From the NCBI RefSeq assembly GCF_009674885.1, contig NZ_WKKA01000015.1, forward strand, positions 1 through 64,000: DNA of 64,000 nt, in the 5' to 3' direction. The DNA comes from Paracoccus sp. S-4012 (GTDB taxonomy: Bacteria > Pseudomonadota > Alphaproteobacteria > Rhodobacterales > Rhodobacteraceae). Positions 4,583-44,756 of the stretch are shown piece by piece. The translations under genes were made by a program, and so were the position numbers. The notes below the pieces were generated by a model, which did no database searches, was not told the origin of the DNA, and worked only from the letters and a program-made list of their open reading frames with translations. Position 1 is the first letter of the stretch; each line of letters starts with the position of its first letter.

Positions 4583-5020
4583 TCACAGGTCCTCGATGAT
4601 GTGGTCTTCCCAGTCGTCCTCGGTCAGCGTCAGCTCGCTCACCGTGCGCCCGCGGACCGAGGCGCCGGCGCGGTGGACCGCCTCCTTGTCGCCCGAGATC
4701 AGATGGTGCCAGGCGTAGAGCGGCTTGCGCTCGGCCCGCAGCCGGTAGGCGCAGGTCGAGGGCAGCCACCACGACACCTCCTCGAGCCGCGCCGGGTCGA
4801 GGACGACGCAATCGGGGACGTAGGTATGCCGGTCGCAGTAGGAGCTGCAGCGGCAGCTATGGCCGTCCAGAAGCTTGCAGGCGACGTTGGTGAAGGCGAC
4901 CTCGCCGGTGTCCTCGTATTCGATCTTGTGCAGGCAGCACTTGCCGCAGCCGTCGCAGAGCGCCTCCCATTCCTCGCTGTCGAGTTCGCCCAGCGGCAGC
5001 TCCCAGAACCGCTCGCGCAT
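4583..5020 (-). CDS. YcgN/UPF0260-type cysteine-cluster protein
   Basis: The 145-residue protein starts MRERFWELPLGELD and shows the cysteine pattern of the YcgN (UPF0260) family: C-D-G-C-G-K-C-C near residue 24, then CRCSSYC and DCVVLDP. These clusters suggest metal or iron-sulfur binding, but the role of the family is not firmly established. The length matches the family. Its ATG shares a base with the TGA stop of ribF upstream, and its own stop is two bases before ltaE, so the three genes look co-transcribed. Confidence 0.85.
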   Translation of the reverse strand: MRERFWELPLGELDSEEWEALCDGCGKCCLHKIEYEDTGEVAFTNVACKLLDGHSCRCSSYCDRHTYVPDCVVLDPARLEEVSWWLPSTCAYRLRAERKPLYAWHHLISGDKEAVHRAGASVRGRTVSELTLTEDDWEDHIIEDL

Positions 5021-26634: not shown

Positions 26635-27321
26635 TCAGGGGGCGGCGGGCGCCGTCTCGTCCGCCTGCTTGAGCCGGTCGGCGAGCTGCGCGCCGCCCTC
26701 GATCAGGTCCAGCTGCACCGCGAGGCGCAGGGCGAAGGGATCGCGGCTGCGCAGCGCGTCGATGATGTTCTCGTGCTGGTGGCGCGCCGCGTAGCGGGGC
26801 TTCGCATCCGGGTAGAGGGCCGAGAGGGTCGGCCCGATCCTGACCCAGAGGCTTTCCAGCACGTCGATCAGCTGCCTCTGCCCCGAGGTGCGGTAGAGGC
26901 CGAAATGGAAGTCGAAATTGGTCTGGAGGGCGACCGGCCAGTCCTCGCCCTCCTCGGCCGCGATCAGGGCCTCGTGGACCCCAACAAGGGCGTCGATCTC
27001 GGCCGGGGTGATCCGCAACAGCGCCCGCTCGGCCGCCATCGGCTCCAGCAGCAGGCGCATGTCGCGGATCTGGCGGTAGTCGTCGAAGTTCAGCCGGCGG
27101 ACGCGGATGTAATGGCGCGGCTTGATCTCGACCGCGCCATCGCGTGCCAGCTGGATGAGGGCCTCGCGCACCGGGGTTTCCGACGTGCCCATCTCGCGCG
27201 CGAGGTCGCGGACCTTCAGGCGCTGGTGCGGCGCCAGTTCGGCCCGCATCAACCCCTCGCGGAGGCGGTCATAGACCGCGTTCGACAGGATGCTGCCTTC
27301 CTCCACGCCCGGTGCATTCAC
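26635..27321 (-). CDS. GntR-family transcriptional regulator (FCD/FadR-type)
   Basis: The 228-residue regulator has an N-terminal winged helix (residues about 13-75) with the GntR hallmark MGTSETPVREALIQLARDG, then an all-helical FCD effector domain ending in the LRSRDPFALRLAVQLDLIEGG helix. Start codon GTG is one base after the aminotransferase stop, so it is the last gene of the system 2 operon beginning at 36415. The likely operator is a TGATATATCA palindrome overlapping that operon's -10 box, so I infer autoregulated repression relieved by an imported or processed ligand. Confidence 0.88.
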   Translation of the reverse strand: MNAPGVEEGSILSNAVYDRLREGLMRAELAPHQRLKVRDLAREMGTSETPVREALIQLARDGAVEIKPRHYIRVRRLNFDDYRQIRDMRLLLEPMAAERALLRITPAEIDALVGVHEALIAAEEGEDWPVALQTNFDFHFGLYRTSGQRQLIDVLESLWVRIGPTLSALYPDAKPRYAARHQHENIIDALRSRDPFALRLAVQLDLIEGGAQLADRLKQADETAPAAP

Positions 27322-27322: not shown

Positions 27323-28564
27323 TCAGCGGCCCTGGGCGAGAGCCTTCATCGCATCGTCGGTCGCCGCAAGGGCGTCGTCGATGACCGCGTCGGTATGGGC
27401 GCAGCAGATGAACATGTTGTGCTTGTGATGCAGATAGACGCCGCGCCGGAGCGCCTCCTGGCAGAACCGCTCGCCCAGCTTCGCCTCCGGGTCGTCGGCG
27501 AACTGAACCAGCGGCATGGACGCGGGGCCGGTCTGGCGCAGCTCGAACCCGTGGCGCGCCGCCTGCTCGGCCAGCCCGGCGCGGAACCGCTCGCCCGCGC
27601 GGCGCATGAGCGCCGGGCCGTCGATCCGGGCCAGTTCGCGGATCGTGACCACGGCGGCGGCCATCGCCGCGCCCGTGTACCAGAACGAGCCGGTGACAAA
27701 GACCTTGCCGGCCGCCTCGCGCAGCCATTCGCTGCCCGTCACCGCCGCCAGCGGCCAGCCATTCGCGATCGCCTTGGAGAACGCCGTCAGGTCCGGGCGC
27801 ACGCCCGTCCCTTCCCAGCTGCCGCCCATGTGCAGCCGGAAGCCGGCCCGCACATCGTCGAGGATCAGCACCGCGCCCGCCTCGTCGCAGATCTCGCGCG
27901 CGGCACGGGCGAATTCGGGGTCCGGCGCCTCCTGCGGGATCGCGAGGTCGTGGCGGAAGGCCGAGACCAGCACCGCGGCCAGATCACCGCCCGCCTCGCG
28001 CGCGGCCGCGCGCAGGCTTTCGGGATCGTTGTAGTCGAAATGCAGCAGATGCGCGCGATCCTCGGCCGTGACCCCGGCGAGCGAGGGCGTGCACCACGGC
28101 ACCGCGCCGTGATAGGCGCCGCGCGCGACCAGCACCTTGCGCCGTCCGGTCGCTGCACGGGCGATGGTGACGCAGGCCGTGGTCGCGTCGGTCCCGTTCT
28201 TTTGCAGCATGGCCCAGTCCGCATGGGCGACCGTCTGCACCAGCAGCTCGGCCAGCTCGACCGTGTGCCGGGTGGGGCCGTCGAGACAGTCCCCGGCCAG
28301 CACCTGCGCCACCCCGGCCTCCTCGACCGCGCGATAGCGGTGCCCGAGGACGATCGGCCCCCAGGCGCACATGAAGTCGATGTAGGAATTGCCGTTGACG
28401 TCGGTCACCCGCGCGCCCTCGCCGCCCGCGAAATACTGGGGATAGCCCGCTGGCAGCACGGCTGCCCGCTGATGGCCCCACATCCCGCCGGGGATCACCG
28501 CGCTTGCACGCTCGCGCAGATCCGCATCGACATCATTCACGATCATACCCGGCATCTCCGTCAT
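27323..28564 (-). CDS. class III aminotransferase (glutamate-1-semialdehyde aminomutase-like)
   Basis: The 413-residue PLP enzyme of fold type I has the phosphate-binding KNGTDATTACVTIARAATG region at residues 122-140, the cofactor acidic pair in LILDDVRAGFR (Asp236/Asp237), and Lys264 in FSKAIANGWP. The sequence is closest to glutamate-1-semialdehyde 2,1-aminomutase-type proteins, but its position after an importer argues for a catabolic omega- or 2-aminotransferase. The start at 28564 is chosen for a GGAGG nine bases upstream; an earlier ATG at 28597 has no such site. It precedes the GntR gene by one base. Confidence 0.88.
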   Translation of the reverse strand: MTEMPGMIVNDVDADLRERASAVIPGGMWGHQRAAVLPAGYPQYFAGGEGARVTDVNGNSYIDFMCAWGPIVLGHRYRAVEEAGVAQVLAGDCLDGPTRHTVELAELLVQTVAHADWAMLQKNGTDATTACVTIARAATGRRKVLVARGAYHGAVPWCTPSLAGVTAEDRAHLLHFDYNDPESLRAAAREAGGDLAAVLVSAFRHDLAIPQEAPDPEFARAAREICDEAGAVLILDDVRAGFRLHMGGSWEGTGVRPDLTAFSKAIANGWPLAAVTGSEWLREAAGKVFVTGSFWYTGAAMAAAVVTIRELARIDGPALMRRAGERFRAGLAEQAARHGFELRQTGPASMPLVQFADDPEAKLGERFCQEALRRGVYLHHKHNMFICCAHTDAVIDDALAATDDAMKALAQGR

Positions 28565-28602
28565 TTTCCTTATCCTCCCGGCGTCGCGCGCCGTCATTCA
28601 AC

Positions 28603-29553
28603 TCAGACCAGATGGCAGGCGACCTGCCGCCCCTCGACCTCGCGCAGCGCCGGCTCGACCTGACGGCAGTGCTCTGTCGCGAGCGGGCAGCGCGTGCTGA
28701 AGTTGCAGCCGCGGGGCTTGTTCAGAAGGCTCGGCACCTCGCCGCCGAGAACCGGCGGGCGCTGACGCTTGCGCGCGCGCGGCACCGCATCGAGAAGCGC
28801 ACGGGTATAGGGGTGCAGCGGGCGCTGATAGAGGTCCGAGCGCTGCGCCAGCTCCACCACCTGCCCGGCATAGAGCACCGCGATCCGGTGCGAGGCGGCG
28901 CGGACCACCGCGAGGTCATGGGCGATGAACAGGTAGCTCAGCCCCATCCGGTCCTGCAGGTCCTTCAGCAGGTTGATGATCTGCGCCTGCATCGACACGT
29001 CGAGCGAGGCCACCGCCTCGTCGCAGATGACGAAGTCGGGGTTAAGCGCGAGCGCCCGCGCGATCACGATGCGCTGCCGCTGCCCGCCCGAGAACTCGTG
29101 CGGGAAGCGGTCGAGGAAGTTCGGCGGCAGGCCGACCAGCTCCATCAGCTCCTCGACGCGGGCATGGCGGTCGGCGCGGCTCATGCCGCCCTTCACCTCC
29201 AGCGGCTCGGCGATGGACTGGCCGACCCGCATCCGCGGATTCAGCGCCGCATGCGGGTCCTGGAACACGAACTGCACCCTATGCCGCAGCGGCTTCCAGG
29301 CGCGGTCCCGCGACTGCGGCGTGATCCGGGTGCCGAAGAGATCCACGGTGCCCTCGCTCGGCGGCAGGGCGCCCACGAGGACCTTGCCGATCGTCGACTT
29401 GCCCGAGCCGGATTCCCCGACGAGGCCCAGGGTCTCACCACGCCGGATGTCGAAGGACACATCCTCGACGGCCTTCAGCAGCTGCTTGCCGCCGGCGCCG
29501 CCCTGGACGAAGGTCCGCGTCAGGTTGCGGACGGATACGATGGTCTCGGTCAT
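28603..29553 (-). CDS. Dpp/Opp-type ABC transporter ATP-binding protein, OppF-like (system 2)
   Basis: The 316-residue ATPase has Walker [14 protein letters not shown]-loop FVFQDPHAALNPR, signature FSGGQRQR and Walker B FVICDEAVASLDVS. The C-terminal oligopeptide extension contains CNFSTRCPLATEHC and a last CHLV: four cysteines in the spacing reported to hold an iron-sulfur cluster in some Opp/Dpp ATPases. It overlaps the partner ATPase by four bases. It lies fifth in the acylase - transporter - aminotransferase - GntR operon. Confidence 0.9.
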   Translation of the reverse strand: MTETIVSVRNLTRTFVQGGAGGKQLLKAVEDVSFDIRRGETLGLVGESGSGKSTIGKVLVGALPPSEGTVDLFGTRITPQSRDRAWKPLRHRVQFVFQDPHAALNPRMRVGQSIAEPLEVKGGMSRADRHARVEELMELVGLPPNFLDRFPHEFSGGQRQRIVIARALALNPDFVICDEAVASLDVSMQAQIINLLKDLQDRMGLSYLFIAHDLAVVRAASHRIAVLYAGQVVELAQRSDLYQRPLHPYTRALLDAVPRARKRQRPPVLGGEVPSLLNKPRGCNFSTRCPLATEHCRQVEPALREVEGRQVACHLV

Positions 29554-30536
29554 GCCACGGCCCGCTTGTCGGTCACATGCAGGGTGCAGCGCACGGCCCT
29601 GCCGCCGCCTGCCTCCAGCATCGGCAGCACGGTATTGCGGCAGTCGGCCTTCTGATGCGGGCAGCGCGGCGCGAAGCGGCAGCCCGCGGGGCGGCGGGTC
29701 GGCTCGGGGATGGAGCCGGCGATGGTCGGCAACCGGTCGAGGTCGCTGTCCAGATCCGGAATCGCCGAGATCAGCCCGTCCGAATAGGGGTGCAGCGGCA
29801 GGTCGAACAGCGCATCGACGGGCGCCATCTCGATCGGCTGGCCGGCATACATGACCATCACCCGGTCGGCGAACTCCGAGACCAGCCCGAGGTCATGCGA
29901 GATCAGGATGACCGACATGCCCAGATCGGCGCGGAGCTGGCGCAACAGCTCCATGATCTGCGCCTGCACCGTCACGTCTAGCGCCGTCGTCGGCTCGTCG
30001 GCGATCAGCAGCTTCGGCTGGCAGGCGATGGCGATGGCGATCATCACGCGCTGACGCTGGCCGCCGGAAAGCTGGTGGGGATAGTCGTTCACGCGCCGCG
30101 CGGCATCGGGGATGCGCACCGTGTCCAGCAACTCGATCGCCCGCCTGCGCGCCGCCGCGCCAGTCATGCCTTGATGGATCCGCAAGCTCTCGCCGATCTG
30201 GTCGGCGATGTTCAGAACCGGGTTCAGGGTGTGGATCGGGTCTTGGAACACCATCGCGATCTCGCTGCCGCGAAGCTGCTGCAGTTGCCCGCGGCTGAGC
30301 TTCAGCACATCGCGGCCGCGCCAGAGAACCTGGCCCTCGATGCGGGTGTTGCGCTCGGCATGGAGGCGCAGCAGCGACAGCGCGGTCACGCTCTTGCCCG
30401 ACCCGCTCTCGCCCACGATGCCCAGCGCGTCGCCCTCGCCCAGCGTGAAGTTCACGCTGTCCACGGCGGGAATCCAGCCGCGGTCGGTGCGGAACGAGAC
30501 CGCCAGGTCGCGCACGTCCAGAAGTTTGTCGGTCAT
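29550..30536 (-). CDS. Dpp/Opp-type ABC transporter ATP-binding protein, OppD-like (system 2)
   Basis: This 328-residue partner ATPase has Walker [14 protein letters not shown]-loop [13 protein letters not shown], signature [10 protein letters not shown] and Walker [15 protein letters not shown]. The C-terminal tail shows [14 protein letters not shown] and a final CTL, the four-cysteine pattern also seen in its partner. It begins four bases after the DppC-like permease ends and overlaps the OppF-like gene. Confidence 0.9.
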
Positions 30537-30540: not shown

Positions 30541-31443
30541 TCACCCCTCGATCTTCAGCCGCGGGTCAAGGACATCGCGCAACCCGTCGCCCATCAGGTT
30601 GATCGACAGCGCCGAGATGCTGATGGCGAGGCCGGGGAACAGCATGATCCACCAGGCCTCCACCGCGAAGTCGCGCCCCTGCGCCACGATGTTGCCCCAG
30701 CTGGCATGCGGCGGCGGCGTGCCGATGCCAAGGAAGCTGAGCGTCGCCTCCGCCAGGATCGCGTAGGCGAAGACGAAGGTGAGCGTGACCAGCAGCGGCG
30801 CGAGGCAGTTGGGCAGGATGTGACGCAGAATGATGCGCAGGCTCGACGCGCCCGAGATCCGGGCCGCCTCGACGTAATCCTGCTCGCGGATCACCAGCGC
30901 CGAGGCCCGCACCATCCGGGCGCAGCGCGGGATATAGGCCGAGGTCAGCGCGATGATGACCGAGGACAGCTGCGGTCCCAGAACTGCGCTGACGCCGATC
31001 GCCAGCAGGATCGCGGGGAAGGCCATGAGCGCGTCCATGATCCGCATGAGCAGGCTGTCGAGCCGCCGGAACCATGCCGCGCAGACCCCGATGATGCCGC
31101 CGAAGAAGGCCGAGAGGAGCGCCACCGTGAACCCGATCCACAGCGACACCCGCGCGCCGTAGACCACCCGCGTCCAGAGATCGCGGCCGAAGTTGTCGGT
31201 CCCGAACGGATAGTCGAGCGACGGCGGAGTGAAGCGCACCCGGACCGAGGTCGCGTTGGGTGTGCCGTTGGTGATCCAGGGCGCGGCCCAGGCCAGCAGC
31301 ACGATGAGCAGCAGCATCACCAGCCCCACCCGGAACGACCGGTGCCGCATCAGCCGCCGCAGCGCCAGGCGCATCGGGCTGTTGGTGGAAACCCGCGCCG
31401 GGCCGGGAGTCGCGGCACCCACGCCGTGTGTCGCGTCAGTCAT
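30541..31443 (-). CDS. Dpp/Opp-type ABC transporter permease, DppC-like (system 2)
   Basis: The 300-residue inner-membrane permease has the first helix [20 protein letters not shown], then the DppC landmark [20 protein letters not shown]. The coupling segment [22 protein letters not shown] is present and the C-terminus reads [13 protein letters not shown]. It overlaps the DppB-like gene by eight bases. The N-terminal 25 residues are hydrophilic and cytoplasmic. Confidence 0.9.
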
Positions 31444-32380
31444 AGCGAACCCTCGGATCGACGACGGTATAGAAGATGTCCACCAGCACGTTGATCGCGA
31501 CGAACATGAAGCCGAGGAACAGCATCGTGCCCTGCACCACCGGAATGTCGCGCGCCATGATCGCCTGCACCAGCAGCCGCCCGATGCCGGGCAGCGCGAA
31601 GATCTGCTCGATCACCACCGAGCCGCCGACCAGAAGGCTGAAGATGTAACCCGAGACGGTCAGCACCGACACCAGCGCGTTGCGGAAGGCGTGTTTCGCG
31701 ACCGTGCGGAGCTCCGAGACGCCCTTGGCGCGGGCGGTGCGGACATAGTCCTGGTCCATCACCTCCAGCATCTCCGAGCGCGTCATCCGGGCCAGATAGC
31801 CGATCTGGAACAGCGCCAACACCGCGGCCGGCATGATGAGCGAGCGCAGCCAGAGCCAGAGCCCCTCGTCGATCGGCACGTAGCCCGCCGAGGGCAGCCA
31901 GCCCAGCGTGACCGAGAAGAGGATGATGGCGAGGATCGCGAGCCAGAAGTTCGGCACCGAGACCCCGACCAGCGCCAGCGACATCACCGCCGTATCCACC
32001 CAGCTGTCGCGCCAGTAGGCCGCGACCATGCCCATGATGATCCCGATGGGGATCGTCATGACGAAGGCGACCATCGCCAGCGAGAGCGTCACGGGCAGGC
32101 GCTCGACGATGGCCTCGGCCACCGGCTGGTTCAGAAACAGCGACCGGCCGAGGTCGAACCGCGCGAGATCCGCCAGCCACGAGCCGAGCTGGATCAGCAA
32201 GGGCCGGTCGAGCCCTAGCTCGCGGCGCAGGGCGTCGACCTTGTCGAGGTCCGCCCCTTCGCCCGCCAGTAGGACCGCGGGATCGCCCGGCAGGAGCTTC
32301 ATCAGCACGAAGGTGAGGATCGCCACGATCAGCATCACCGGCACTGCCTGCGCCAGTCTTGTCAGGATGAGCTTGATCAT
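31436..32380 (-). CDS. Dpp/Opp-type ABC transporter permease, DppB-like (system 2)
   Basis: The 314-residue permease opens [21 protein letters not shown] and [17 protein letters not shown], typical of DppB, with the coupling motif [23 protein letters not shown]. The ATG at 32380 was chosen because GGAG lies five bases upstream; a GTG six bases earlier would place the site too close. It follows the system 2 solute-binding protein by about 110 bases and overlaps the DppC-like gene. Confidence 0.9.
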
Positions 32381-32487
32381 CGGCACTCCGGGAGAGGCGA
32401 GTCACCCGCCGCAGGCCGCGGCGAAGGCGAGGACGATGGGAGGCGACCGGCCCGCGAGGGGCCGGTCAGGGGCACGGAAGGCGCGGG

Positions 32488-34038
32488 TCAGCGCATCCAG
32501 ACGCCCCAGAAGAAGTTCATGTAGTACTCGGGATAGCCGCCGATATCGCCGGGCCGATAGGCGCGGGCCGAGGCGCGGTTCGAGACCTTGATCATGTAGG
32601 CCTCGTCAAGGATGCGGTTCTCGATCTCGAGCCAGGCCGCGCGCCGGTCCTCCGCGTCCAGCGACGAATAGAACTTGTCGAAGTTCTCATCCATCACGGC
32701 GTCGTCCTTCACCTGCGGGAAGGTATAGACGACCGAGCGCCACTGCTGCGGCCCCAGAAGCGGGTTCGAGCAGAAGGAGGTGGTGGCGACGTTCCAGCGC
32801 CCGGAGCCGGTGCTCATGTTGGTCGACTGGGTCGGCCAGTCGGTCACATCGACCTTGGTGTTGAAGCCGGCCATCTTGAGTTGCTCGTCCAGCATCACGA
32901 TGCTGTCGCGCATGTAATCGTAGTTGGTGTTGGTCTGCAGGACGAGTTCCTCGGAACCGTAGCCCGCTTCCTTCAGCATCGCCGCGGCAGCGTCGGGGTC
33001 GTTCTGGTTGTAGAACGGCGCAGAGTTTTCCTCCGAGTAGTAGAACCCGCCCTCATAGGCCATGCCCGGCGCCAGCGTGGCCGGGTCTCCCGCGACCAGC
33101 ATGATGTCCTCGGCATTGACCGCGGTGCGCAGCGCTTTGCGGACGGCCGAATTGTCGGTCGGCGCCTGCTGGCTGTTCACGACCAGATACTGCTGGCAGT
33201 AGGGCACGATCTCGACCGTCTGCACCCCCTCGACGCTCTCGAGCGACCGCACGGAGTCGAGGTTCAGGGGCGTCACGACATGCGCCTCGCCGGTCTGGAT
33301 CGCGGCGGATCGGGCGTTGGTTTCGGTCAGGAAGTTGACGCGGACGCTGTCGAGCCAGACCTTCTTGTTGCCGGCATAGCCCGAGGGCTCATGCGCGGTG
33401 TCAGCGGTGTAGTCGTCGAACCGCTCGAGATAGAGGTGGCTGTCGCGCACCCAGTCGCCCAGCTTGAACGGGCCGGTGCCGATCGGGTCGTTCTCGCGCG
33501 CGGGCTTGTCGGCCTGCGAGGCGGGCAGGATCACGACCGGATAGACCGGCGATTTCAGCGCGTCGAGGAAGGCGGCGTTCAGCGTCTTGAAGTGGATGAT
33601 GAAGGTGTGGTCGTCCGGCGTCTCGTAGCGGTCGACATCGTCGAGCAGCGAGGCGTTGGAGCTGACTTCGGCATAACGCTCGAACGAGGCCAGCACGTCG
33701 GCCGAGGTCATGACCGAGCCGTCATGGAACTTCACGCCCTCGCGCAGCTTGAACGACAGCGTCATCCCGTCGTCGCTGAGCTCGTAGCTTTCGGCCAGCA
33801 TCGGCGCAGTGTCGTAATTCTCGTCGATGGTGACGAGGCCTTCATAGATCTGATGCATGACCTCGAGGTCGATCAGCGCGCTGGCCACATGCGGGTCCAT
33901 GTGACCCGGACCGCCGTTGGTGGCGTAGATCAGCGTGCCGCCCTCCTTGGGCGCATCCTGGGCCAGTGCGGGCCCGGCCACCAGCGCGCTGCCGGAAAGC
34001 AGCGCCGCGAGAAGCGATCTGCGAAGGGTAAGGCTCAT
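32488..34038 (-). CDS. extracellular solute-binding protein, SBP_bac_5 family (system 2)
   Basis: The 516-residue periplasmic receptor has a Sec signal peptide ([22 protein letters not shown], cut after about residue 26). The mature chain begins with [20 protein letters not shown] and has the family segments [25 protein letters not shown] and [17 protein letters not shown]. It lies between the acylase gene and the system 2 permeases. If the operon is one pathway, its ligand would be an acylated or peptide-like compound that the cytoplasmic acylase later cleaves. Confidence 0.9.
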
Positions 34039-34114: not shown

Positions 34115-36415
34115 TCACTGCGTGGAAAGCACCGTCCGCCGCCGCGTCAGCGCGCGGACCTTCGCCTCGGACCAGGGCGCGGGGACCAGCTCGCCCCGCG
34201 ACCAGGGACCGTTCTGGTTGCTGTAATGCGGATCGCCCGGCACGCCCGAGGCGCCGTGGAACACCACCCAGGAGCAGTTGTCCCAGTCCGAGAGATCCCA
34301 GATGTATTTCGCCACCGGCCCATAGACCGAGGCTGAGCCGGTTGCCGGCAGGCCCCCGGTCGCCAGCACGCAGTCGCCGTCGCCCGAGACGGGGGCCGAG
34401 TCCGGCGCCCATGCCTTCGCCTCCGGGAAGGCCGAGGCCAGCGGATGCGCGAAGGACGGATGATGCGCCTCGCCCCAGGAGCGCGGAGTGAAATCGGCAG
34501 CGACGGCGGCGATGGCCTCGTCGATGACCGAGTTCCAGTCGCCCCCCTGCCCCAGCAGGCTGGTGTCGTCGCGGCGCAACTGGTCGGGCAGCGCCCACCA
34601 TAGATGCGTCAGCGGGCTGATCCCTGGCGGCAGCTTCGCAATCTCGCTGTCGGCCACGGCGCCGAGGCCGGAGCGCGCCACGAGGATGCGCGTCATCTGC
34701 TGGCGGATCGCGTAATAGACGGTCGGCGCGAGCTCGGTCGCCGCCATCAGCCCGTTCCAGCCCTCCAGCGCATTCACGAGGTCACGGCCCGCGCCCGCGG
34801 CCGGACGCCGCGCAACGATCCGCGCCGCGATCTCGCGCGCGACGGCGGAGCTGTGATCGTGGAGGAGCGGCAGCATGTCCTCGGGCGCGAACGGCCCCTT
34901 GGCCGACAGCACCTCATGGATGCGGTTCGCCCGCGTGCTGGGATGGCAGTCGGTGCAGATGTAATCCGGCCAGTCGTCGGGCACCGTGCGGTTGTTCGCG
35001 GTGACGACGATCCCCGTGGCGGGGTTCTCCTCGCGCGGCATCCGCGCGAAGGGGATCAGCCCGCGCCATTCATGCGCCCCGGTCCAGCCGGGCACCGGCA
35101 ACCAGCCGTTCAGGCGGTCGCGCTCGGGGAGGCGCGCGCGAACCTGCACGCCGATGTTGTTCTGGCGGTCCGCGGCGACCAGGTTGTGGTCGATCAGGCC
35201 CCAGGGCTCCATCAGGTCGTAGAAGGCAGTGATCGTTTTCGCGCTCATCATCGGGCGCAGGCAGTCGAGGGAGCGGTCGTCGGGCCGGAACTGCATGGAC
35301 TTGAGCGCCAGTCCCGCGCCCTCGGCCGGGCCGCCGAGGATCAGCGGGCCGTGCCGGGTTTCCCAGACGTCGATGGTCACATCGGCCTCGCCGCGCAGGC
35401 GGATCACCTCCTGACGGTGGGTGGCCGGCTCGCTCCCGGTTTCGGTGCGGTAGTGTCCCTCGGGAAGGCCGCTGAAATCCTCGACATAGAGGTCATGGAT
35501 ATCGGCGAAGGCGTGGGTCACGCAGAAGGCGATGTCCTCGTTATGGCCGAAATGCGGGGTGCCGGGCACGCCGGGGACGGTCAGGCCGAGCACGTCCAGA
35601 TCGCCGCCGGTCAGGTGGATCTGGGCATACATGCCGGGAATCTCGTAGGCGCGGTGGGGGTCGCCCGCCACGATCGGCATGCCGGTGGTGGTATGGCGGG
35701 CATCCACCGCCCAGTTGTTCGACCCGCCGCCGGTGACGTCCTGCCCGAAGAGGCGCGACAGCCCCTCGATCGCCGGGGCGAGATCGGCCAGCGCCGCGGT
35801 CCAGCGGCGGTCCTGCCGCTCCTGCGGCACGACGAAACGCTCCAACCCGCCATCCTCGTAGCGCAGCAGGTTGAGGTGATCGGGACCGATTGCGGCAAAA
35901 GCCGCCGCGCGCCACAGCTTGAACCAGATCGAGCCCATCAGCATGCCGCGCTGACGCATCACGACGACGCAGTGCCACGGCTCCCAGTCCTCGGGCGTCT
36001 CGCCAAGCAGGCCGTATTCGGGCGGCAGCTCGCCCGCGGCGATGAAGGCGTTCACGCCCGCCGAGTAGGCCTCGCACATGGCCTTCGTCTCGGGCGACAG
36101 CGCGTCGTAATTCGCCCGCGACACCTGATCGACGCCCAGCCGCCGCATCAGCGTGTCCGACGCGAGGCCCTCGCCCCCGACCCACTCGCCCCAGCGCCCG
36201 AGCGCCCGACGCCGCGCGGCATCCATCTGCCAGAGCCGCTCGGCCGCATGGACCCAGCCATTGGCGAAGAAGAGGTCCGGCTCGTTCCCGGCGCGGATAT
36301 GGGGGACGCCCCAGACGTCATGCCGGATCTCGACTGGGGCGCTGAGGCCCTCCAGCAGGACATAACGCTCCGCCGCGCCGCCGGCCTTCATGTCGCCGGA
36401 AATCTCGCTCGCCAT
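34115..36415 (-). CDS. penicillin acylase-family Ntn-hydrolase without signal peptide
   Basis: The 766-residue precursor belongs to the penicillin G acylase/AHL acylase family, which self-cleaves to expose an N-terminal Ser that hydrolyses an amide bond. The cleavage site and nucleophile are [12 protein letters not shown], Ser232. The downstream [13 protein letters not shown] and [12 protein letters not shown] (with the oxyanion Asn) are conserved. Most relatives are exported, but this N-terminus ([20 protein letters not shown]) has no hydrophobic stretch, so the enzyme appears cytoplasmic. It is first in the system 2 operon, which suggests import of an N-acyl or amide compound followed by intracellular deacylation. 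Acyl preference is unknown. Confidence 0.87.
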
Positions 36416-36439
36416 AGGTTCCCCCGTTCCCTCCGCGTG

Positions 36440-36474
36440 TCTGATATATCAGATCTGTGAAGGCGGGTCGTCAA
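36440..36474 (-). promoter_or_regulatory. promoter with operator over the -10 box of the acylase/importer operon
   Basis: On the minus strand TTGACG (36474-36469) is separated by 17 bases from TGATAT (36451-36446), a good sigma-70-type promoter 25-60 bases before the acylase start. The 14-base perfect palindrome TCTGATATATCAGA (36440-36453) covers the -10 box. Its size and symmetry suit a dimeric GntR/FCD regulator, such as the one encoded at the end of the same operon. Confidence 0.75.
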
Positions 36475-36564
36475 CCTTATTCTGGCGCGTGGATGGAAGG
36501 GGGAAATACCGGTACGAAGCGGAAGTCCGCTGGCCTGCAGGTCCTCTCCCCTGCCGGAGGAGCT

Positions 36565-36577
36565 GCTGATATATCGG
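36565..36577. promoter_or_regulatory. second, imperfect TGATATATC operator-like site
   Basis: The sequence CTGATATATCGGC repeats the palindrome core at 36440-36453 with decay on one side. It lies about 125 bases further upstream of the acylase operon, just after the amidase stop. Two copies of a rare AT-rich motif inside 140 bases of GC-rich DNA suggest cooperative or looped binding. Confidence 0.5.
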
Positions 36578-36607
36578 CCTGTCCGAAACGGTTTGAAAGA
36601 GTGGGCC

Positions 36608-38053
36608 TCAGCTTAAGCCGGGCGGCAGCGCATCCAGCCAAGGGCTGATCCGGTCCCACGCCGCCACGGCGCGCAGCAGCCGGTGGTCGCCGCGCGGGGG
36701 GCCGATCATTTGCATGCCCATCGGCAGGCCCTCCGGGCTGAAGCCCGCGGGAACGCTGACGGCGGGGCAGCCCGACATCGTCGCGCCCACGACCACCTCC
36801 ATCCAGCGGTGATAGCTGTCCATCCGGCGGCCGCCGACCTCCTGCGGCCATTCGATGCCGGCGGCGAAGGGGAAGACCTGGGCCGCGGGCAGCAGCAGGA
36901 AGTCGTGGCGTTCGAACAGTTCCAGCATCCGGCGATACCAGGCCCCGCGCACCACCCCGGCCCGCCAGAGGTCCAGCGAAGTCAGCTTCAGGCTCTCCGA
37001 GACCTCCCACTGCGCCTCGGGCTTCAGCAGCGCGCGCTGCGCCGGGTCGGCCCAGTGATCGGCGTGACGCCCGCCGATCGAATGCTGGCGCAGCCGCACG
37101 AAGGCCTGCCAGAGCGCCTCCATGTCGAAGCCGATCCCCACCGGGTCGACTGACGCACCGGCGTCGGCCAAGCGGCCCGCAGCCGCCTCGACCAGTTCCA
37201 GCACGCCCGGCTCGAACGGCAGATGGCCGTCGAAATCCCCCAGCCAGCCGAACCGCAGGGTCGCGGGGTCGAGCGGCTCCGCCGCCGTGGACCAGTCCTC
37301 GCCCTCGCCCAAGGACAGCGGCGCCCGCGGGTCGTATCCGGCCTGCACGCCCATCAGCATCGCCAGATCCTCGGCCGAGCGGCCCATCGGCCCGTCGGTC
37401 GCCATCTGGCCGTAGAACGGATCGATCAGCTCGGCGGGCACGCGGCCCTGCGAGGGGCGGAAGCCGTAGACGTTATTCCAGGCCGCCGGATTGCGCAGCG
37501 AACCGCCCATGTCACTGCCATCCGCCACCGGCAGCATCCGCATCGCCAGCGCCACGCCCGCCCCGCCGCTGGAGCCGCCGCCGACGCGTTCGGGGTTCCA
37601 GGCGTTGCGCGTCAGCCCGAAGATCGGGTTGTAGCTGTTTGATCCGTAGCCGAATTCCGGCACGTTGGTCTTGCCGATGATGATCGCCCCGGCATCGCGC
37701 ATCCGCTCGACGAAGATCGCATCCGTCGCGGGCACCAGATCGGCGAACAGCGGCGAGCCGAAGGTCGTCCGCAGCCCCTTGGTGAAGGCCAGATCCTTGA
37801 TCGCCTGCGGCAGCCCGTGCATCGGCCCGACCGCATCGCCGCGCGCCACCGCCTCGTCCGCCGCCTGCGCCTCCGCCATCAGCGCCGCGCGCGGGCGCAG
37901 CGAGATGATGGCGTTCACCGCTGGGTTCACCGCCTCGATGTGATCGAGATAGGCGCCCATCACCTCGCTGGCCGAGACCTCGCGGCGGCGGATCATCCCG
38001 GCGAGGGGGACCGCGTTCAGCCGGCAGAGTTCCGGCACGGTGTGGCTGGTCAT
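36608..38053 (-). CDS. amidase signature-family enzyme
   Basis: The 481-residue amidase uses the Ser-cisSer-Lys triad. Lys is in GLPQAIKDLAF near residue 88, and the Ser pair is in the GGGSSGGAGVALA and ADGSDMGGSLRNPAAW blocks at about residues 160-190. Members hydrolyse amides such as aryl, acyl-amino or urea-like amides. No signal peptide is seen. It lies 74 bases downstream of the aldehyde dehydrogenase gene on the same strand, probably as the last gene of the system 3 leftward operon, and immediately before the promoter region of system 2. Confidence 0.88.
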   Translation of the reverse strand: MTSHTVPELCRLNAVPLAGMIRRREVSASEVMGAYLDHIEAVNPAVNAIISLRPRAALMAEAQAADEAVARGDAVGPMHGLPQAIKDLAFTKGLRTTFGSPLFADLVPATDAIFVERMRDAGAIIIGKTNVPEFGYGSNSYNPIFGLTRNAWNPERVGGGSSGGAGVALAMRMLPVADGSDMGGSLRNPAAWNNVYGFRPSQGRVPAELIDPFYGQMATDGPMGRSAEDLAMLMGVQAGYDPRAPLSLGEGEDWSTAAEPLDPATLRFGWLGDFDGHLPFEPGVLELVEAAAGRLADAGASVDPVGIGFDMEALWQAFVRLRQHSIGGRHADHWADPAQRALLKPEAQWEVSESLKLTSLDLWRAGVVRGAWYRRMLELFERHDFLLLPAAQVFPFAAGIEWPQEVGGRRMDSYHRWMEVVVGATMSGCPAVSVPAGFSPEGLPMGMQMIGPPRGDHRLLRAVAAWDRISPWLDALPPGLS

Positions 38054-38127: not shown

Positions 38128-39564
38128 TCAGCCCTTCCGGGTGACGAAGCGCGTCTCGAGATAGGCCTCGATCGCCTCGGAGCCGCCCTCGGTGCCGTGG
38201 CCGGAATCGTTGATCCCGCCGAACGGCACCTCGGGCAGCGCGAGGCCGATATGGTTGATCGAGGTCATGCCCGCCGCAATCTCGCGGCCGAGCCGGTTCG
38301 CCGTGGCGCTGTCGCGGGTGAAGGCATAGGCGGCGAGGCCGAAGGGCAGCCGGTTGGCCTCGGCAATGGCCTCGTCCAGATCGCCGAAGCGGTTGATGAC
38401 CGCGACTGGGCCGAACGGCTCCTCGTTCATGATGCGGGCCTCGACCGGCACCTCGGCGAGGACCGTCGGCTCGAAGAACCAGCCCTCGTTGCCGATCCGC
38501 CGGCCGCCGGTCGTCAGCCGCGCGCCGCGCTCGACCGCGTCGGCGATCATCCCCTCCAGCGCCGGGATGCGGCGCTCGTTCGCCAGCGGCCCCATCTCGA
38601 CACCCTCATCGAGGCCGCTGCCAATCTTCACCGCTGCGGCGATCTCGGTGAACCGCTCGGTGAACTCGTCATGCAGCGCATCCTGCACGAGGAAGCGGGT
38701 GGGCGAGATGCAGACCTGCCCCGCGTTGCGGAACTTGTAGGGCGCGATCACGTCCAGCGCCTGGTCGATGTCGGCGTCGCCCGCGACGATCACCGGGGCA
38801 TGGCCGCCAAGCTCCATCGTCGCGCGCTTCATGTGCAGCCCGGCCAGCGCCGCCAGTTGCTTGCCCACCGGCGTCGAGCCGGTGAAGCTGATCTTGCGGA
38901 TCACCGGATGCGGGATGAGGTATTCCGAGATCTCGGCCGGGTTGCCGTAGACGAGGTTGATGACGCCCGCGGGCACGCCCGCATCGACAAAGGCGCGGAC
39001 CAGTTCGGCCGGGCTGGCCGGGGTTTCCTCGGGGCCCTTGACGATGATCGAGCACCCGGCGGCGAGGGCCAGCGACAGCTTCCGCACGACCTGGTTGACC
39101 GGGAAGTTCCACGGCGTGAAGGCCGCGACCGGGCCGACCGGCATCTTCATCGCGATCTGGATGACGTCGGGCGCGCGCGACGGGATCACCTGACCATAGG
39201 CGCGCTGCCCCTCGCCCGCGAACCAGTCGATGATGTCGGCGCCGGACATGATCTCGATGCGCGCCTGCGCGAGCGGCTTGCCGTTCTCCAGCGTCAGGAT
39301 CGGCGCGATGACGTCGGCACGGTCGCGCAGCAGCTGAGCGGCCTTGCGCATGATCTTGCCGCGCTCGAAGGCGGAGACCCGGCTCCACTCGGCGAAGCCG
39401 CGCTCGCAGGCGGCGAGGGCCGCATCCAAGTCGGCGCGCGTGGCGCGGGCGACGCGGCCGATCTCGCGCGAGGTCGCCGGGTTCATCACCGGCAGGCTCT
39501 CGCCGGTCTCGCCGGGACGCCAGGCGCCGTCGATCAGAAGCTGGGTGTCGGGATAGCTGGTCAT
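38128..39564 (-). CDS. NAD(P)-dependent aldehyde dehydrogenase (succinate-semialdehyde dehydrogenase-like)
   Basis: This 478-residue ALDH oxidises an aldehyde to its acid. The catalytic Cys285 lies in [11 protein letters not shown] and the base Glu251 in MELGGHAP; the [11 protein letters not shown] cofactor loop is at residues 228-237. The sequence resembles succinate-semialdehyde and related dehydrogenases. The start at 39564 is supported by GAGGAAG nine bases upstream, whereas a reading from 39606 overlaps the CoA-transferase gene and lacks a site. It stands between a CaiB CoA-transferase and an amidase, suggesting amide to acid to CoA ester conversions. Confidence 0.9.
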
Positions 39565-39602
39565 CGGTTCTTCCTCGGTCTGGTCCGCCCGTGCGGCGCG
39601 AA

Positions 39603-40859
39603 TCATTGCGGGGCGAGGCTGCTGGTGGATGCGGGCGCCTCGTCCGCGGCATGGCAGGCGACGACGCCGCGCGCGGCCAGGCCCTCGATCTCGTCCTCGC
39701 CGAGGCCCAGCACCTCGCGCAGGACCGTGCGCGTGTCCTCGCCCAGCAGCGGCGGTGCCTTGGCCGGGCGGTCGGGATCGTTCTGCGCCGCGAGCCCCTG
39801 CGCGGCGCGGATCAGCGAGATGGTGCCGAGCTCTGGATGCTCGATCTGCTGGATCACCCCGCGCTCGACCACCGAGGGCGCGCTCAGGGCCTCGGAGACC
39901 GTTTTCACCGGCCCCGCGGGCACATCCGCCGCGCGGCAGGCGTCGAGCCAGTGCTGCGAGGGCCGCGTCAGCATGATCTCCTGCAGGATCGCCAGCAGTT
40001 CCGGCCGGTTCAGCGCTCGCTGATGCGAGGTCGTGAAGCGCGGATCGGTGGCGAGATCGGGCCGGTCGACAACCTTGGTGCAGAAATCCGCATACATGCG
40101 GTCGTTGCCCACCGCGAGCGCGAAGCTGCCATCCGCGGTCTGCAGCACCTGGTAGGGCACCACGGTCGGATGCGCGTTGCCGTAGCGTTTCGCCTCGACC
40201 CCGGCGTTGAGATAGCCGGTGCCGACGTTGATGAGCAGGTTCAGCGTGGTGTCGAGCAGCGCCACGTCGATGAACTGCCCCTCGCCGGTGTCGCGCCGCT
40301 GGTAGAGGGCGGCGAGGATCGATTGCGTGGCCACCATGCCGGCGACGACATCGGTGAAGGCGACCCCCAGCCGGTTCGGCGGGCCGTCCACCTCGCCGGT
40401 GATGGACATCAGCCCGCTCTCGGCCTGCATAATGAAGTCGTAGCCGGGCCGCGTCCGCTCGGGGCCGGTCTGGCCGTAGCCCGAGATCGAGCAGTAGACG
40501 ATGCCCGGGTTGATCGTGCGGATATCCTCGTAGCCGATGCCGAGCCGGTCCACCGTCCCGGCGCGGAAGTTCTCGACCACCACATCGGCGCGCGCGGCGA
40601 GGTCGAGGACGATCTGCCGCCCCTCCGCGGTCTTCAGGTCGACCGCCACCGAATGCTTGCCGCGGTTGGCGCAGAGGTAATAGGTGCTGACGCCCTTGAA
40701 GCTCGGCACCGACCAGGCGCGCGTGTCGTCGCCGCCGCGGATGTTCTCGATCTTCCAGACCTCGGCCCCGAGATCGCCAAGGCTCATGGTGGCCCAGGGC
40801 CCGGCCAGAACCCGCGTCAGGTCCAGCACCTTAATCCCCTCCAGCGGCAAGGCAGTCAT
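39603..40859 (-). CDS. CaiB/BaiF-family (class III) CoA-transferase
   Basis: The 418-residue enzyme transfers CoA between acids. The N-terminal [18 protein letters not shown] and the [13 protein letters not shown]-like strand are classic for the family. The catalytic aspartate is Asp170 in [11 protein letters not shown], at the position known from formyl-CoA transferase. [12 protein letters not shown]-like CoA-binding turn lies near residue 67. It follows the system 3 ATPase by 15 bases and precedes the aldehyde dehydrogenase, so the acid made by that enzyme is a plausible CoA acceptor. Confidence 0.9.
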
Positions 40860-40874
40860 TCGTTGCTCCTCAGA

Positions 40875-41897
40875 TCAGGTTCGCGCCGGCGCATCGCCGA
40901 GCAGCCCGGTCGCCTTGGCGACGGGGAAATGGCAGGCGACGGCATGTCCGGCGCCATGGTCGATCAGCGGCGGCTCCTTCTCGGCGCAGAGCGGCTGCGC
41001 GATTGGGCAGCGGGTGCGGAAGCGGCAGCCGGAGGGCGGGTCGATCGGGCTCGGGACGTCGCCCTGAAGCACGATCCGCCGCCGGCTGCGCTCGCGCACG
41101 GGGTCGGCCAGCGGCACCGCGGACATCAGCGCATGGGTGTAGGGATGCAGCGGCGCGCCGTAGAGCTGCGCCTTCGGCGCGATCTCGACGATCTTGCCCA
41201 GATACATCACCGCGACCCGGTCGCTGATGTGCTGCACCACCGAGAGGTCATGCGCGATGAACAGGAACGCCGTGCCCTGATCGCGCTGCACGTCCTTGAG
41301 CAGGTTCAGCACCCCCGCCTGAACCGAGACGTCGAGCGCCGAGACCGGCTCGTCGAGGACCAGCAGTTCCGGCTTCAGCGCGAGCGCGCGGGCGATGACG
41401 ACCCGCTGACGCTGACCGCCCGACAGCTCGTGCGGGTAACGCTCGGCGTGTTCGGGGTTCAGCCGCACGAGCTCCATCATCTCGGCCACGCGGGCCTTGC
41501 GCCCGGCCGCATCGAGGTCGCTGATCCGCAGCGGCTCGGCGATGTTGGCGCCGATGGTCATGCGCGGATGCAGCGAGGCGTAGGGGTCCTGGAACACCAG
41601 CTGCACCCTGCGCCGCAGCTGCCGCATCGCCTCCGGCGGAAGCGTGTTGATGTCGGTGCCGTGAAACAGCGTCTGGCCCGAACTCGGCTCGATCAGGCGC
41701 AGGATGCAGCGGCCGAGCGTGGACTTGCCGCAACCGGATTCGCCGACGAGGCCCAGCGTCTCGCCCGGCATCACGTCGAAGGAGACATCGGCCACGGCGC
41801 TGACCTGCGCGACCTCCCGCTCGATCAGGAGGCCGCCCTTCACCGGGAAGCGCTTCACGAGGTTGCGGACCGAGAGGATGGGATCGTGGCGGGTCAT
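40875..41897 (-). CDS. Dpp/Opp-type ABC transporter ATP-binding protein, OppF-like (system 3)
   Basis: The 340-residue ATPase has Walker [14 protein letters not shown]-loop [13 protein letters not shown], signature [10 protein letters not shown] and Walker [15 protein letters not shown]. The extended C-terminus carries [14 protein letters not shown] and a late CHF, the four-cysteine motif shared with system 2 ATPases. It overlaps the OppD-like partner by four bases and lies fourth in the leftward IclR-controlled operon. Confidence 0.9.
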
Positions 41898-42892
41898 GCG
41901 GCGCGTCCGGCCCGGTCAAAGGCGAAATGGCAGGCGGCGCCATGCGCGCCCTCGAACAGCATCGGCGGCGCGTCCCGGCGGCAGATGTCGCGGGCCATGG
42001 GACACCGCGGGGCGAAGGGGCAGCCCGGCGGCAGGGTGCCGATCGGCGGCGGCGAGCCCTCGATCGAGAACAGCCGGTCGGTCTGGCTCGCCATGTTCGG
42101 GATCGAAGCGATTAGGCCGCGGGTATAGGGATGGCCGGGCCGGGCGAAGAGGTCGTTGACCCCCGCCTCCTCGACCACCCGCCCGGCATAGACCACCGCC
42201 ACCCGGTCGGCATGGCCCGCGAGCACGCCGAGATCATGGGTGATGAGGATCATCCCCAGCTTCAGCCGCTGCTGCAGTTCGGCCAGCACGCCCATGATCT
42301 GCGCCTGCACGGTGACGTCGAGGGCGGTGGTCGGCTCGTCCGCGATCAGCAGGTCGGGATCGTTCGCCACCGCCATGGCGATCATCACCCGCTGCCGCAT
42401 CCCGCCCGAGAACTCGTGCGGATACTGCGAGATCCGGCGGTCGGGCTGCGGAATGGCGACCAGCGCCAGCAGGTCCTTGGCCCGATCCATCGCGGCGCGC
42501 TTCGACATGCCCGGATTGTGCAGCCACACCGCCTCGGCGATCTGGGCGCCGACCGTCATCACCGGATTGAGCGAGGACAGCGGATCCTGGAAGATCATCG
42601 CGATGCGCGAGCCGCGCAGCGAGCGCATCTCGGCGCGGGGCAGTTCGGTCAGTTCGCGCCCCTTGAAGCGCACCGAGCCGGAGACCCGCGCGCCGCGCGG
42701 CTGCAGGCCGATCGAGGCAAGCATCCCGAGGGACTTGCCCGATCCGCTCTCGCCGACGACGCCCAGCACCTCGCCCGGCGCGACATGCAGGCTGATGCCG
42801 CGCACCGCCTCGAGGCTGCGGCCGCGCTTCTCGAACGTGACGCGGAGGTCGCGCACCTCGAACAGGGGGGTGGTGCCGGTCGCGGGCATCAT
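41894..42892 (-). CDS. Dpp/Opp-type ABC transporter ATP-binding protein, OppD-like (system 3)
   Basis: The 332-residue ATPase has Walker [14 protein letters not shown]-loop [13 protein letters not shown], signature [10 protein letters not shown] and Walker [15 protein letters not shown]. The C-terminal [14 protein letters not shown] plus CHF cysteine motif is present. Start codon 42892 overlaps the permease stop and follows GAGG by five bases. A much longer open reading upstream is the permease gene in another frame. Confidence 0.9.
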
Positions 42893-43740
42893 TCCGACCT
42901 CGGATCGAAGTAGTCGTGGAGGCCGTCGCCGATGAAGTTGAAGCCCAGCACGATGGTCAGGATCGCAAGGCCGGGACCCAGCGCCACCCACCAGGAGTAG
43001 AACTGCGACGCCCCGTCCGAGATCATCGAGCCCCATTCCGGCGTCGGCGGGGTCGCGCCAAGGCCGATGAACGACAGCGAAGCGGCGAGCAGGATCACCT
43101 GGCCAAGGTCCATCGTCGCGCTGACGAGCACCGGGGTCCAGCAGAGCGGCAGGATATGCCGGATCAGCACCCGAGGCCGGGTCGCGCCGGAGGCCACGGC
43201 GGCCTCGACATGCTCGCGCTCGCGCACTTCCAGCACCTGCGCCCGCATCAGCCGCGCATAGACCGGCCACCAGACGATCACCATGGCGATGGCAGCGTTG
43301 CCGAGGCCCGGTCCCAGCGAGGCGGCGACGGCCATCGCCAGAAGCATCGGCGGGAAGGACAGGGTCACATCGACCAGCCGCATGATGACCGCGCCCACCC
43401 AGCCGCCGAGATAGCCCGACAGCGCGCCGAGCGTGGCGCCGATCAGCACCGACAGCGCGACTACCATCACCGCCAGCGGCAGCGAATGGACCGCGCCGTG
43501 CAGCGTGCGGCTGAGAACATCGCGGCCGAGCGCATCGGTGCCGAGCCAGTGCTCCCAGCTCGGCGCCTGCAACCGGCGGCCGACCAGGTCGAGCGGATCG
43601 TAGGGCGCCACCAGGGGGGCGGCTACGGTCATGATGGCCCAGAAGCCGACGATCAGAAGCCCCAGCATCATCGGCAGCGACAGCCAGTGCGGCCAGTGCA
43701 GGGCGAGGCGCGAGGCGCGGGAGGGGGAGACGAGGGTCAT
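42889..43740 (-). CDS. Dpp/Opp-type ABC transporter permease, DppC-like (system 3)
   Basis: The 283-residue permease has the first helix MMLGLLIVGFWAIMTVAAPLV, then HWLGTDALGRDVLSRTLHGAV. The coupling region QVLEVREREHVEAAVASGATRPR and the end [13 protein letters not shown] are typical DppC. The start at 43740 gives a short hydrophilic N-terminus and sits two bases after the DppB-like stop; a longer reading would cover that gene in another frame. Confidence 0.9.
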   Translation of the reverse strand: MTLVSPSRASRLALHWPHWLSLPMMLGLLIVGFWAIMTVAAPLVAPYDPLDLVGRRLQAPSWEHWLGTDALGRDVLSRTLHGAVHSLPLAVMVVALSVLIGATLGALSGYLGGWVGAVIMRLVDVTLSFPPMLLAMAVAASLGPGLGNAAIAMVIVWWPVYARLMRAQVLEVREREHVEAAVASGATRPRVLIRHILPLCWTPVLVSATMDLGQVILLAASLSFIGLGATPPTPEWGSMISDGASQFYSWWVALGPGLAILTIVLGFNFIGDGLHDYFDPRSE

Positions 43741-43742
43741 GC

Positions 43743-44756
43743 CTAGCCCAGCCGGACGCGCGGATTGGCCACGACATAGGCCACATCCGTGATGAGGTTG
43801 GTGATGAGGAAGATGACGCCGCCGACGATCGTCACGCCGATGATCGCCGGAAAGTCGAGCCCGCGCGCCGCCTCGACCGCGTAGGAGCCCATGCCGGGCC
43901 ACGAGAAGATGGTCTCGGTCAGCACGGCCCCGGTCAGCAGGTAGGCGAAGGAATAGCCGATCACCGTCAGCGTCGGCACCAGCGTGTTGCGCAGCGCGTG
44001 GCGCAGGATGACGCGGCGCTCGCCGGCCCCCTTGGCGCGGGCGGTGAGGATGAACTCACGGCTCAGGACCTCAAGCATGTTGGCCCGCACGAGACGCGAG
44101 ATGGTTCCCGCGACCGCCCAGCCGAGGACGAAGGCCGGCAGCAGCAGATGCCAGAGCGCGTCGAGAAACAGCCGGAGGTGTCCGGCGAGCAGCGTGTCGA
44201 TGGTCAGGAACCCGGTGACCGAGGGCGGCAGCGCGGCCCTCGGGTCCACGCGCCCCGGCCCCGGCATGATCCCCCACTTGACCGAGAACACGTAGAGCAG
44301 CGCCAGCCCCATCCAGAAGACCGGGATCGACGAGCCGATCAGCGCGAAGAGCCGCGCCACATGGTCAACCACGGTGTTGCGGAAGGCCGCCGCCAGCACG
44401 CCGAGGGTGATCCCCATGCTCGACCCGACGATCAGGGCGGCGATGACCAGCTCCATCGTCGCGGGCAGGCGATAGAGCACGTCCTGCGCCACCGGCCTGC
44501 GGGTGATGAACGAGGTGCCCATGTCGCCCTGCAGGAGGTTGCCGACATAGATGAGGTAACGCTCGGGCAGGCTGCGATCGAGGCCCCACTTCGCCCGCGC
44601 CGCGGCCACCACCTCGGGGTTGTTCATCTGCCGGTCCGAGATGATCGCGGTCAGCGGGTCGCCCTTGGTGACCGCCGTCAGCAGGAAGGCCAGCGTGACC
44701 ACCCCGAGAATCAGGAACGGCATCGCGGCGAGGCGGCGCAGGATGTAGCGGGTCAT
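43743..44756 (-). CDS. Dpp/Opp-type ABC transporter permease, DppB-like (system 3)
   Basis: The 337-residue permease begins MTRYILRRLAAMPFLILGVVTLAF and AVTKGDPLTAIISDRQMNN. The coupling motif FILTARAKGAGERRVILRHALRN is followed by further helices, and the end is VANPRVRLG. It is the first gene of the leftward operon and is divergent from the iclR gene. The binding protein for this importer is not here but at 49427, beyond the dehydrogenase genes. Confidence 0.9.
   Translation of the reverse strand: MTRYILRRLAAMPFLILGVVTLAFLLTAVTKGDPLTAIISDRQMNNPEVVAAARAKWGLDRSLPERYLIYVGNLLQGDMGTSFITRRPVAQDVLYRLPATMELVIAALIVGSSMGITLGVLAAAFRNTVVDHVARLFALIGSSIPVFWMGLALLYVFSVKWGIMPGPGRVDPRAALPPSVTGFLTIDTLLAGHLRLFLDALWHLLLPAFVLGWAVAGTISRLVRANMLEVLSREFILTARAKGAGERRVILRHALRNTLVPTLTVIGYSFAYLLTGAVLTETIFSWPGMGSYAVEAARGLDFPAIIGVTIVGGVIFLITNLITDVAYVVANPRVRLG

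Follow-up and report, generated by a model that had tools for sequence, protein, structure and literature searches.

What controls the penicillin-acylase operon of Paracoccus sp. S-4012, and does the operon carry the gene of its own repressor? The question is raised by two palindromes located in the gap between an amidase gene (36608-38053) and an acylase gene (34115-36415), both transcribed from the minus strand. The DNA analysed here, referred to as the window, comprises positions 1-64,000 of the forward strand of contig NZ_WKKA01000015.1 (assembly GCF_009674885.1). The evidence assembled below, drawn from sequence comparison across genomes, indicates that the two palindromes are very probably operators of a repressor whose gene is the last of this same operon.

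The operon and its promoter

The acylase gene is the first of the following run of genes:

34115-36415, minus strand: penicillin-acylase-family protein, first gene of the operon (PF01804, E 1.1e-174)
32488-34038, minus strand: ABC transporter substrate-binding protein (SBP_bac_5)
31436-32386, minus strand: ABC permease, DppB-like (presumptive name)
30541-31443, minus strand: ABC permease, DppC-like (presumptive name)
29550-30536, minus strand: ABC ATPase, OppD-like (presumptive name)
28603-29553, minus strand: ABC ATPase, OppF-like (presumptive name)
27323-28597, minus strand: class-III aminotransferase (best NCBIfam match glutamate-1-semialdehyde aminomutase, below cut-off)
26635-27321, minus strand: GntR-FCD regulator, last gene of the operon (PF00392 and PF07729; recognition helix TSETPVREAL, with Glu48)

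The names of the four ABC genes are our assumption from sequence and gene order. The genes from acylase to regulator are all encoded on the minus strand, none more than 101 nt from the next, and the regulator gene starts 1 nt past the stop codon of the aminotransferase gene, from which we infer a single transcript. A matrix scan of the 64-kb window (see below) detected no further operator of at least 14 bits, and the acylase promoter is accordingly the one regulated route into the regulator gene that can be seen. Feedback, which the original prediction had read from the place of the regulator as the last gene of the unit, follows if the run is indeed one transcript, because the GntR gene ends a closely packed series of genes read in one direction and the scan of the window revealed no other operator.

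The gap upstream of the acylase gene contains the following elements:

36469-36474, minus strand: -35 hexamer TTGACG, read from the sequence; TTGACG is also present before the Falsigemmobacter acylase gene
36446-36451, minus strand: putative -10 hexamer TGATAT at 17-nt spacing, weak (3/6 against TATAAT)
36440-36453, no strand assigned: predicted proximal operator TCTGATATATCAGA, a perfect 14-bp palindrome on the -10 position of the acylase promoter
36565-36578, no strand assigned: predicted upstream operator GCTGATATATCGGC, with 6/7 palindromic pairs and the GATATATC core intact

The centres of the two predicted operators are 125 bp apart, and 26 nt separate the 10-bp core of the proximal one from the acylase ATG. 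The 14-base perfect palindrome that the original prediction had placed over the -10 box was found as TCTGATATATCAGA, spanning TGATAT at 36451-36446, and TGATAT makes up the first six bases of the operator core in the minus-strand reading. As for the decayed copy said to lie 125 bases upstream, the copy and the distance were borne out, but the decay affects only the flanks. The proposed TTGACG/TGATAT promoter stands in part: both elements are present at the 17-base spacing, but the -10 hexamer is poor, and a consensus sigma-70 promoter at the acylase gene was rejected, as the scan of the gap under A2/T6 rules accepted no promoter. TTGACG was retained as the -35 element because at 8 of the 14 site-bearing aminotransferase promoters TTGAC is found again 21-24 nt ahead of the operator, and because TTGACG precedes the Falsigemmobacter acylase gene.

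Predicted operators beside relatives of the regulator

The identity of the regulator was addressed by comparing loci in other genomes. Relatives of the regulator were sought in overlapping samples at the level of family (394 genomes), order (390) and class (385), and further in 17, 22 and 43 genomes around relatives, plus plasmids, and the surrounding DNA was read. At a cut-off of 14 bits, sites were present at 20 of the 25 loci examined. Where the regulator was at least 45% identical, 19 of 21 loci carried a site, the window being counted among them (window, G255 with two loci, G188, G192, G215, G092, G585, G1046, G1039, G1053, G981, G1031, G1033, G825, G1059, G1061, Variovorax and Pseudoroseomonas); the two with no accepted site were Falsigemmobacter (L021) and the truncated contig L036 (58% identical). 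Among loci with a regulator 39-41% identical, one of four carried a site (Rhizobium, 41%). In the same identity range, G009 had no site of 14 bits, G091 had nothing with at most one mismatch in the 3.6 kb seen, and G075 had four AT-rich matches of at least 14 bits in a region of 58% GC, which were counted as unclear.

The site matrix was trained on 21 sites. When ten loci fetched after training were scanned, each contained at least one site of at least 14 bits, the means for shuffled sequence being 0.00-0.23 per locus. Four of six other stretches scanned had no site at this threshold; the remaining two were G075, with four, and Falsigemmobacter, with two. A matrix built without the window sites placed the proximal operator first in the 64 kb (23.4 bits) and the upstream operator second (11.5 bits), the next match reaching 6.4 bits.

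Falsigemmobacter has the operon order of the window minus the aminotransferase gene, and its GntR protein is 63% identical. Only CTGATGCATCC occurs at the matching place; TTGACG is followed after 18 nt by TGATGCATCC, in which the central TA has become GC, and the two matches above the cut-off (14.6 and 14.9 bits) lie at two other places and lack the GATATATC core. A further candidate, GGATATATCC at L027 18956, was not used because it is inside the acylase reading frame. The open reading frames called at the loci of relatives over-extend some starts and include some frames on the wrong strand (for example at L055 and L051); acylase starts alone were reassigned, at the eight loci with a site before this gene.

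Sites in relatives precede aminotransferase, acylase, transporter, regulator and split-transketolase genes, and genes for dimethylformamidase-like, sugar-acid-kinase-like and class II aldolase proteins lie nearby. The likely common theme is the catabolism of an amide or peptide-like compound taken up from outside. In the neighbourhoods of L026, L043 and L044, genes for a class-III aminotransferase, split transketolase, a dimethylformamidase-like protein, a 3-oxo-tetronate-type kinase and a class II aldolase recur in varying sets. The association extends to plasmids of Variovorax paradoxus (CP063167.1) and Pseudoroseomonas cervicalis (NZ_CP115853.1), where a regulator 48-51% identical is accompanied by a site before an aminotransferase gene. 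The Variovorax region also contains amidase, penicillin acylase and ABC transporter genes, with a second site before the gene of the substrate-binding protein; unlike in the window, its regulator gene stands among the first genes of the cluster, next to split transketolase genes, and the acylase gene has no site immediately before it. The Pseudoroseomonas stretch differs in having no acylase gene.

Spacing of paired sites

Of the ten acylase genes at these loci, eight are directly preceded by a site, with an in-frame start 17-31 nt past the core in every case (several have further possible starts), which puts the site at the -10/start region. The exceptions are Falsigemmobacter, with no clear site, and Variovorax, whose site follows the acylase gene and precedes the substrate-binding protein gene. 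A partner site is located 118-128 bp upstream at five of the eight (125 bp in the window, 128 in G255, 128 in G1039, 127 in G1053 and 118 in G1046).

The distances between neighbouring sites are not evenly spread. For all 25 neighbour spacings of 40-300 bp between sites of at least 14 bits, R was 0.74 at the best period of 10.55 bp and 0.72 at 10.5 bp, falling to 0.41 at 10 and 0.47 at 11.5, and none of 5000 jittered sets was as good. Because the loci are related, this figure is too good; when near-identical spacings were collapsed to 16 lengths, R was 0.62 and 46 of 5000 jittered sets matched it, a fairer figure that still ignores kinship. The test left out the spacings of 24 bp (L034) and 31 bp (L041) and dropped the L058 sites repeating those of L051, and it kept the middle L026 site, which spoils the phasing. 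Spacings of 194, 120 and 132 bp were out of phase. In the window, 125 bp corresponds to 11.90 turns at 10.5 bp per turn and 11.79 at 10.6, that is, 0.1-0.2 turn below a whole number. Since the spacings cluster at whole turns, DNA looping or side-by-side pairing of dimers on the paired sites is likely. It should be noted that only 11 of the 20 site-bearing loci have two sites of at least 14 bits separated by 40-300 bp. Pairs set much closer together, 24-31 bp apart, are found in one related family (L034 8271/8295, L041 8401/8432 and L042 11433/11464, the second L042 site scoring 13.5 bits); they would suit adjacent dimers rather than a loop.

The same regulator could also bind the two operators independently and with no loop, the proximal one repressing the acylase promoter and the upstream one being separate, vestigial or a barrier to transcription reading through from the amidase gene. 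Of the two, the upstream site scores lower (11.5 against 23.4 bits), it lies 31 nt past the amidase stop codon, and a terminator search of 36380-36640 found none. Many of the relatives' pairs are flanked by divergent genes and could serve one promoter each, and some relatives have single sites (L035, L044, L054 and L055). Nevertheless, independent action would not lead one to expect spacings clustered at whole helical turns, nor a pair kept 118-128 bp apart at five acylase promoters, and we regard it as unlikely, if worth keeping in view.

Position of the predicted operator on the promoter

The placement of TTGAC relative to the operator bears on the direction of regulation. It is found 21-24 nt before the core at eight site-bearing aminotransferase promoters (L022, L023, L024, L025, L026, L033, L051 and L053) and is not so placed at the other six (L034, L041, L042, L043, L044 and L045). 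Within 45 nt of any site, TTGAC was present on 16 of 122 sides, compared with 165 of 4868 control sides, although six of these 16 occurrences are at distances unsuited to a promoter running through the site. The 17 nt that follow TTGACG in the window set the operator on the -10 element itself, whereas the 21-24 nt seen elsewhere set it slightly downstream. The sign of regulation is unreadable from sequence, and a weak -10 element would suit a promoter that is activated. But a proximal site at or just 3' of the -10 element, in the window as at these eight aminotransferase promoters, occupies a position that blocks the polymerase, which makes an activating role for the regulator at these sites improbable. 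The reading of the regulator as a repressor is the one followed here.

Specificity of the predicted operator sequence

A 10-mer, TGATATATCA, was used to follow the operator through whole genomes. Its exact form occurs once in the 3.80-Mb genome of Paracoccus sp. S-4012. As the control (the pattern read backwards) occurs twice, the genome scan by which the original prediction would have defined a regulon establishes that the exact site is unique, but does not demonstrate enrichment. With one mismatch there are nine places in the genome, against two for the control; seven of the nine are outside the amidase-acylase gap, and the GATATATC core is broken in all seven.

The exact 10-mer was further searched in 37 genomes, the presence of the regulator being judged at E 1e-50, so that distant relatives count as absent. 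Twelve genomes with the regulator contained 17 exact sites, 16 of them in the fetched regulator-linked regions; exact sites were present in seven of these genomes, and the other five have sites with mismatches. In the 25 genomes with no close relative, five exact sites were found, in four of them. The backward control occurred once in all 37 genomes.

These stray sites, together with the nine further GntR homologues of the Paracoccus genome, one of which (C33:237376) also carries the SETP motif described below, would be compatible with binding by a different regulator, for example another GntR protein of the genome. However, across genomes the sites track the locus of the 26635-type regulator, and the absence of any other site of at least 14 bits from the 64-kb window also speaks against this assignment, which is very improbable.

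Within the window, perfect palindromes of at least 14 bp are as frequent as chance predicts (11 observed, approximately 10.5 expected), and for this reason the 14-bp palindrome taken alone was dropped as evidence. The core is a different matter: GATATATC was observed twice, both times in the amidase-acylase gap, against 0.10 expected, and TGATATATCA with at most one mismatch matches only the two operators, a count of two that none of 100 shuffles attained. A chance origin of the palindromes in the AT-rich surroundings of a promoter, as palindrome frequency by itself would allow, is hardly credible in view of the core count and of their first and second rank under a matrix derived from other genomes.

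The regulator and its recognition helix

The protein encoded at 26635 belongs to the GntR family, FCD subfamily, with scores of 60.9 bits for PF00392 and 84 bits for PF07729, both above the gathering cut-off. Its best sequence match among solved structures is E. coli McbR/YncC (PDB 4p9f, E 4.7e-20). The profile NF008504 (PRK11414, GntR regulator), which we take to be the McbR/YncC model, gave 90 bits, below its curated cut-off of 225. An AlphaFold2 model made from two sequences was of low confidence (mean pLDDT 55).

An alignment leaving out the truncated L036 showed the recognition helix SETP(V/I)REA in all 20 site-bearing regulators and in that of Falsigemmobacter; the corresponding motif is SVTP in G009, SITP in G075 and SATP in G091. 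Glu48 is present in all 20, that of the window included, and none has Arg at the position of FadR Arg45, the equivalence of the two positions resting on the pattern (R/E)-T-x-x-R. According to a study on Atu1419, Arg45 in FadR and Atu1419 makes a conserved guanine contact typical of the GntR family, whose operator signature is GT(N)xAC (PMC7797058). The conserved core here, GATATATC, has no GT...AC. This regulator subfamily departs from the usual GntR pattern both in having Glu for Arg45 and in its operator. Among the nine other homologues in the genome, one has SETP, three have Arg and five have other residues; because one paralogue also has SETP and Arg is missing in six of the nine, Glu by itself is no marker of the motif, and its association with the motif may simply follow one clade.

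Comparison with known systems

By analogy, the nearest known mechanism is that of Atu1419 from Agrobacterium fabrum, an FCD-GntR protein of the VanR group; this group is described as lacking an additional helix downstream of the linker in the effector domain and as including McbR, and Atu1419 as binding 10-bp palindromes 190 bp apart with loops seen by electron microscopy and, at another promoter, a degenerate partner 109 bp away (PMC7797058). The two systems have in common an FCD-GntR regulator, a 10-bp AT-rich palindrome, two operators (predicted ones in the window) per promoter region and sites at or near core promoter elements; the pair in the window is 125 bp apart, a helically phased distance. 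They differ in that the Atu1419 operator, given there as ATGTATACAT, combines GT...AC with the guanine contact of Arg45, whereas here TGATATATCA is combined with Glu.

E. coli McbR/YncC is likewise an FCD-GntR protein, but has Ile where Glu48 is found here. Its sites are said to seem to include ATATAT, which fits the ATATAT-cored operator of the window. The canonical operators of the FadR subfamily consist of TKGT/ACMA boxes in which GT and AC are 2-3 nt apart, BioR and NanR being among the known exceptions (PMC4494728). The present sites resemble these in being short AT-rich palindromes, and the same paper describes divergons with double sites, but the TKGT/ACMA consensus is absent here. In the open-licence literature, no GntR paper appeared, by title, among the matches listed for TGATATATCA; GATATATC searched together with GntR gave nothing on such an operator in titles and the beginnings of abstracts, and penicillin acylase with GntR gave nothing related by title.

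Proposed circuit and its significance

The observed sites, their position, the gene order, the co-occurrence with the regulator and the phasing can be assembled into a model, in which binding, repression, looping, the single transcript and the inducer are the inferred parts. The FCD-GntR protein (26635-27321) would bind the GATATATC-cored sites as a dimer; on the proximal operator, the dimer would cover the -10 region and exclude RNA polymerase. Occupancy would be raised, through a DNA loop or dimer pairing, by a second unit bound at the upstream operator, which lies 125 bp off and faces nearly the same side of the helix. The trigger for release would be a small molecule, probably from among the substrates and products of the transporter/acylase/aminotransferase route. 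Because it would be made from the same transcript, the regulator would limit its own synthesis. We hold this model as a whole, from both operators and the -10 block to ligand release and self-limitation, to be probable.

The comparison across genomes supports the original prediction in substance. Its assignment of the operators to the GntR protein encoded at 26635, a guess from a single genome, agrees with the same-sequence sites found at 19 of the 21 loci whose regulator reaches 45% identity, and with the acylase promoter of five genomes, the present one included, at which the pair is 118-128 bp apart. Its repression geometry for a GntR/FCD dimer holds for the position at the -10 box, but a single dimer on one site is probably too simple, since paired, phased sites suggest two dimers or a tetramer. 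What emerges is very probably a real and fairly ordinary autoregulated repressor circuit of known kind, distinguished by its operator and by recurrent phased pairs, the latter not part of the original prediction.

An operator for which no description was found in the literature searched can now be tied to a regulator and a gene set, and its regulon therefore becomes predictable in genomes carrying the regulator. The altered motif, coupled with the altered residue at the Arg45 position, offers a testable step in the recognition code of a very large regulator family, and the phased spacings make looping in FCD regulators testable by simple insertions. More tentatively, and with rather less than even confidence, we propose that an FCD-GntR subfamily of Alpha- and Betaproteobacteria has a changed DNA code (Glu for Arg45; TGATATATCA lacking GT...AC) and acts largely via operator pairs on the same helix face, looping being its usual way of controlling amide/peptide-type catabolic operons.

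Other observations

In G1042, a genome with no close relative of the regulator, two of the five exact TGATATATCA sites found in such genomes occur 1018 bp apart (L086 8897 and 9915; G1042:C14:191896 and 192914) at the promoters of a divergent Opp-type transporter. The 20 kb read around them contain a single GntR match, 32% identical, and another regulator may use the same motif there. In the window itself, a co-directional run upstream of the amidase gene (38128-44756) contains an aldehyde dehydrogenase, a CoA-transferase and a second Opp-like transporter, and relatives of both window transporters are found near the same regulator in other genomes. Finally, a 22-bp perfect palindrome, CGAATTTTCGTACGAAAATTCG, is located at 3513-3534 between the convergent open reading frames 2716-3483 (plus strand) and 3540-4811 (minus strand), where it is perhaps a two-way terminator.
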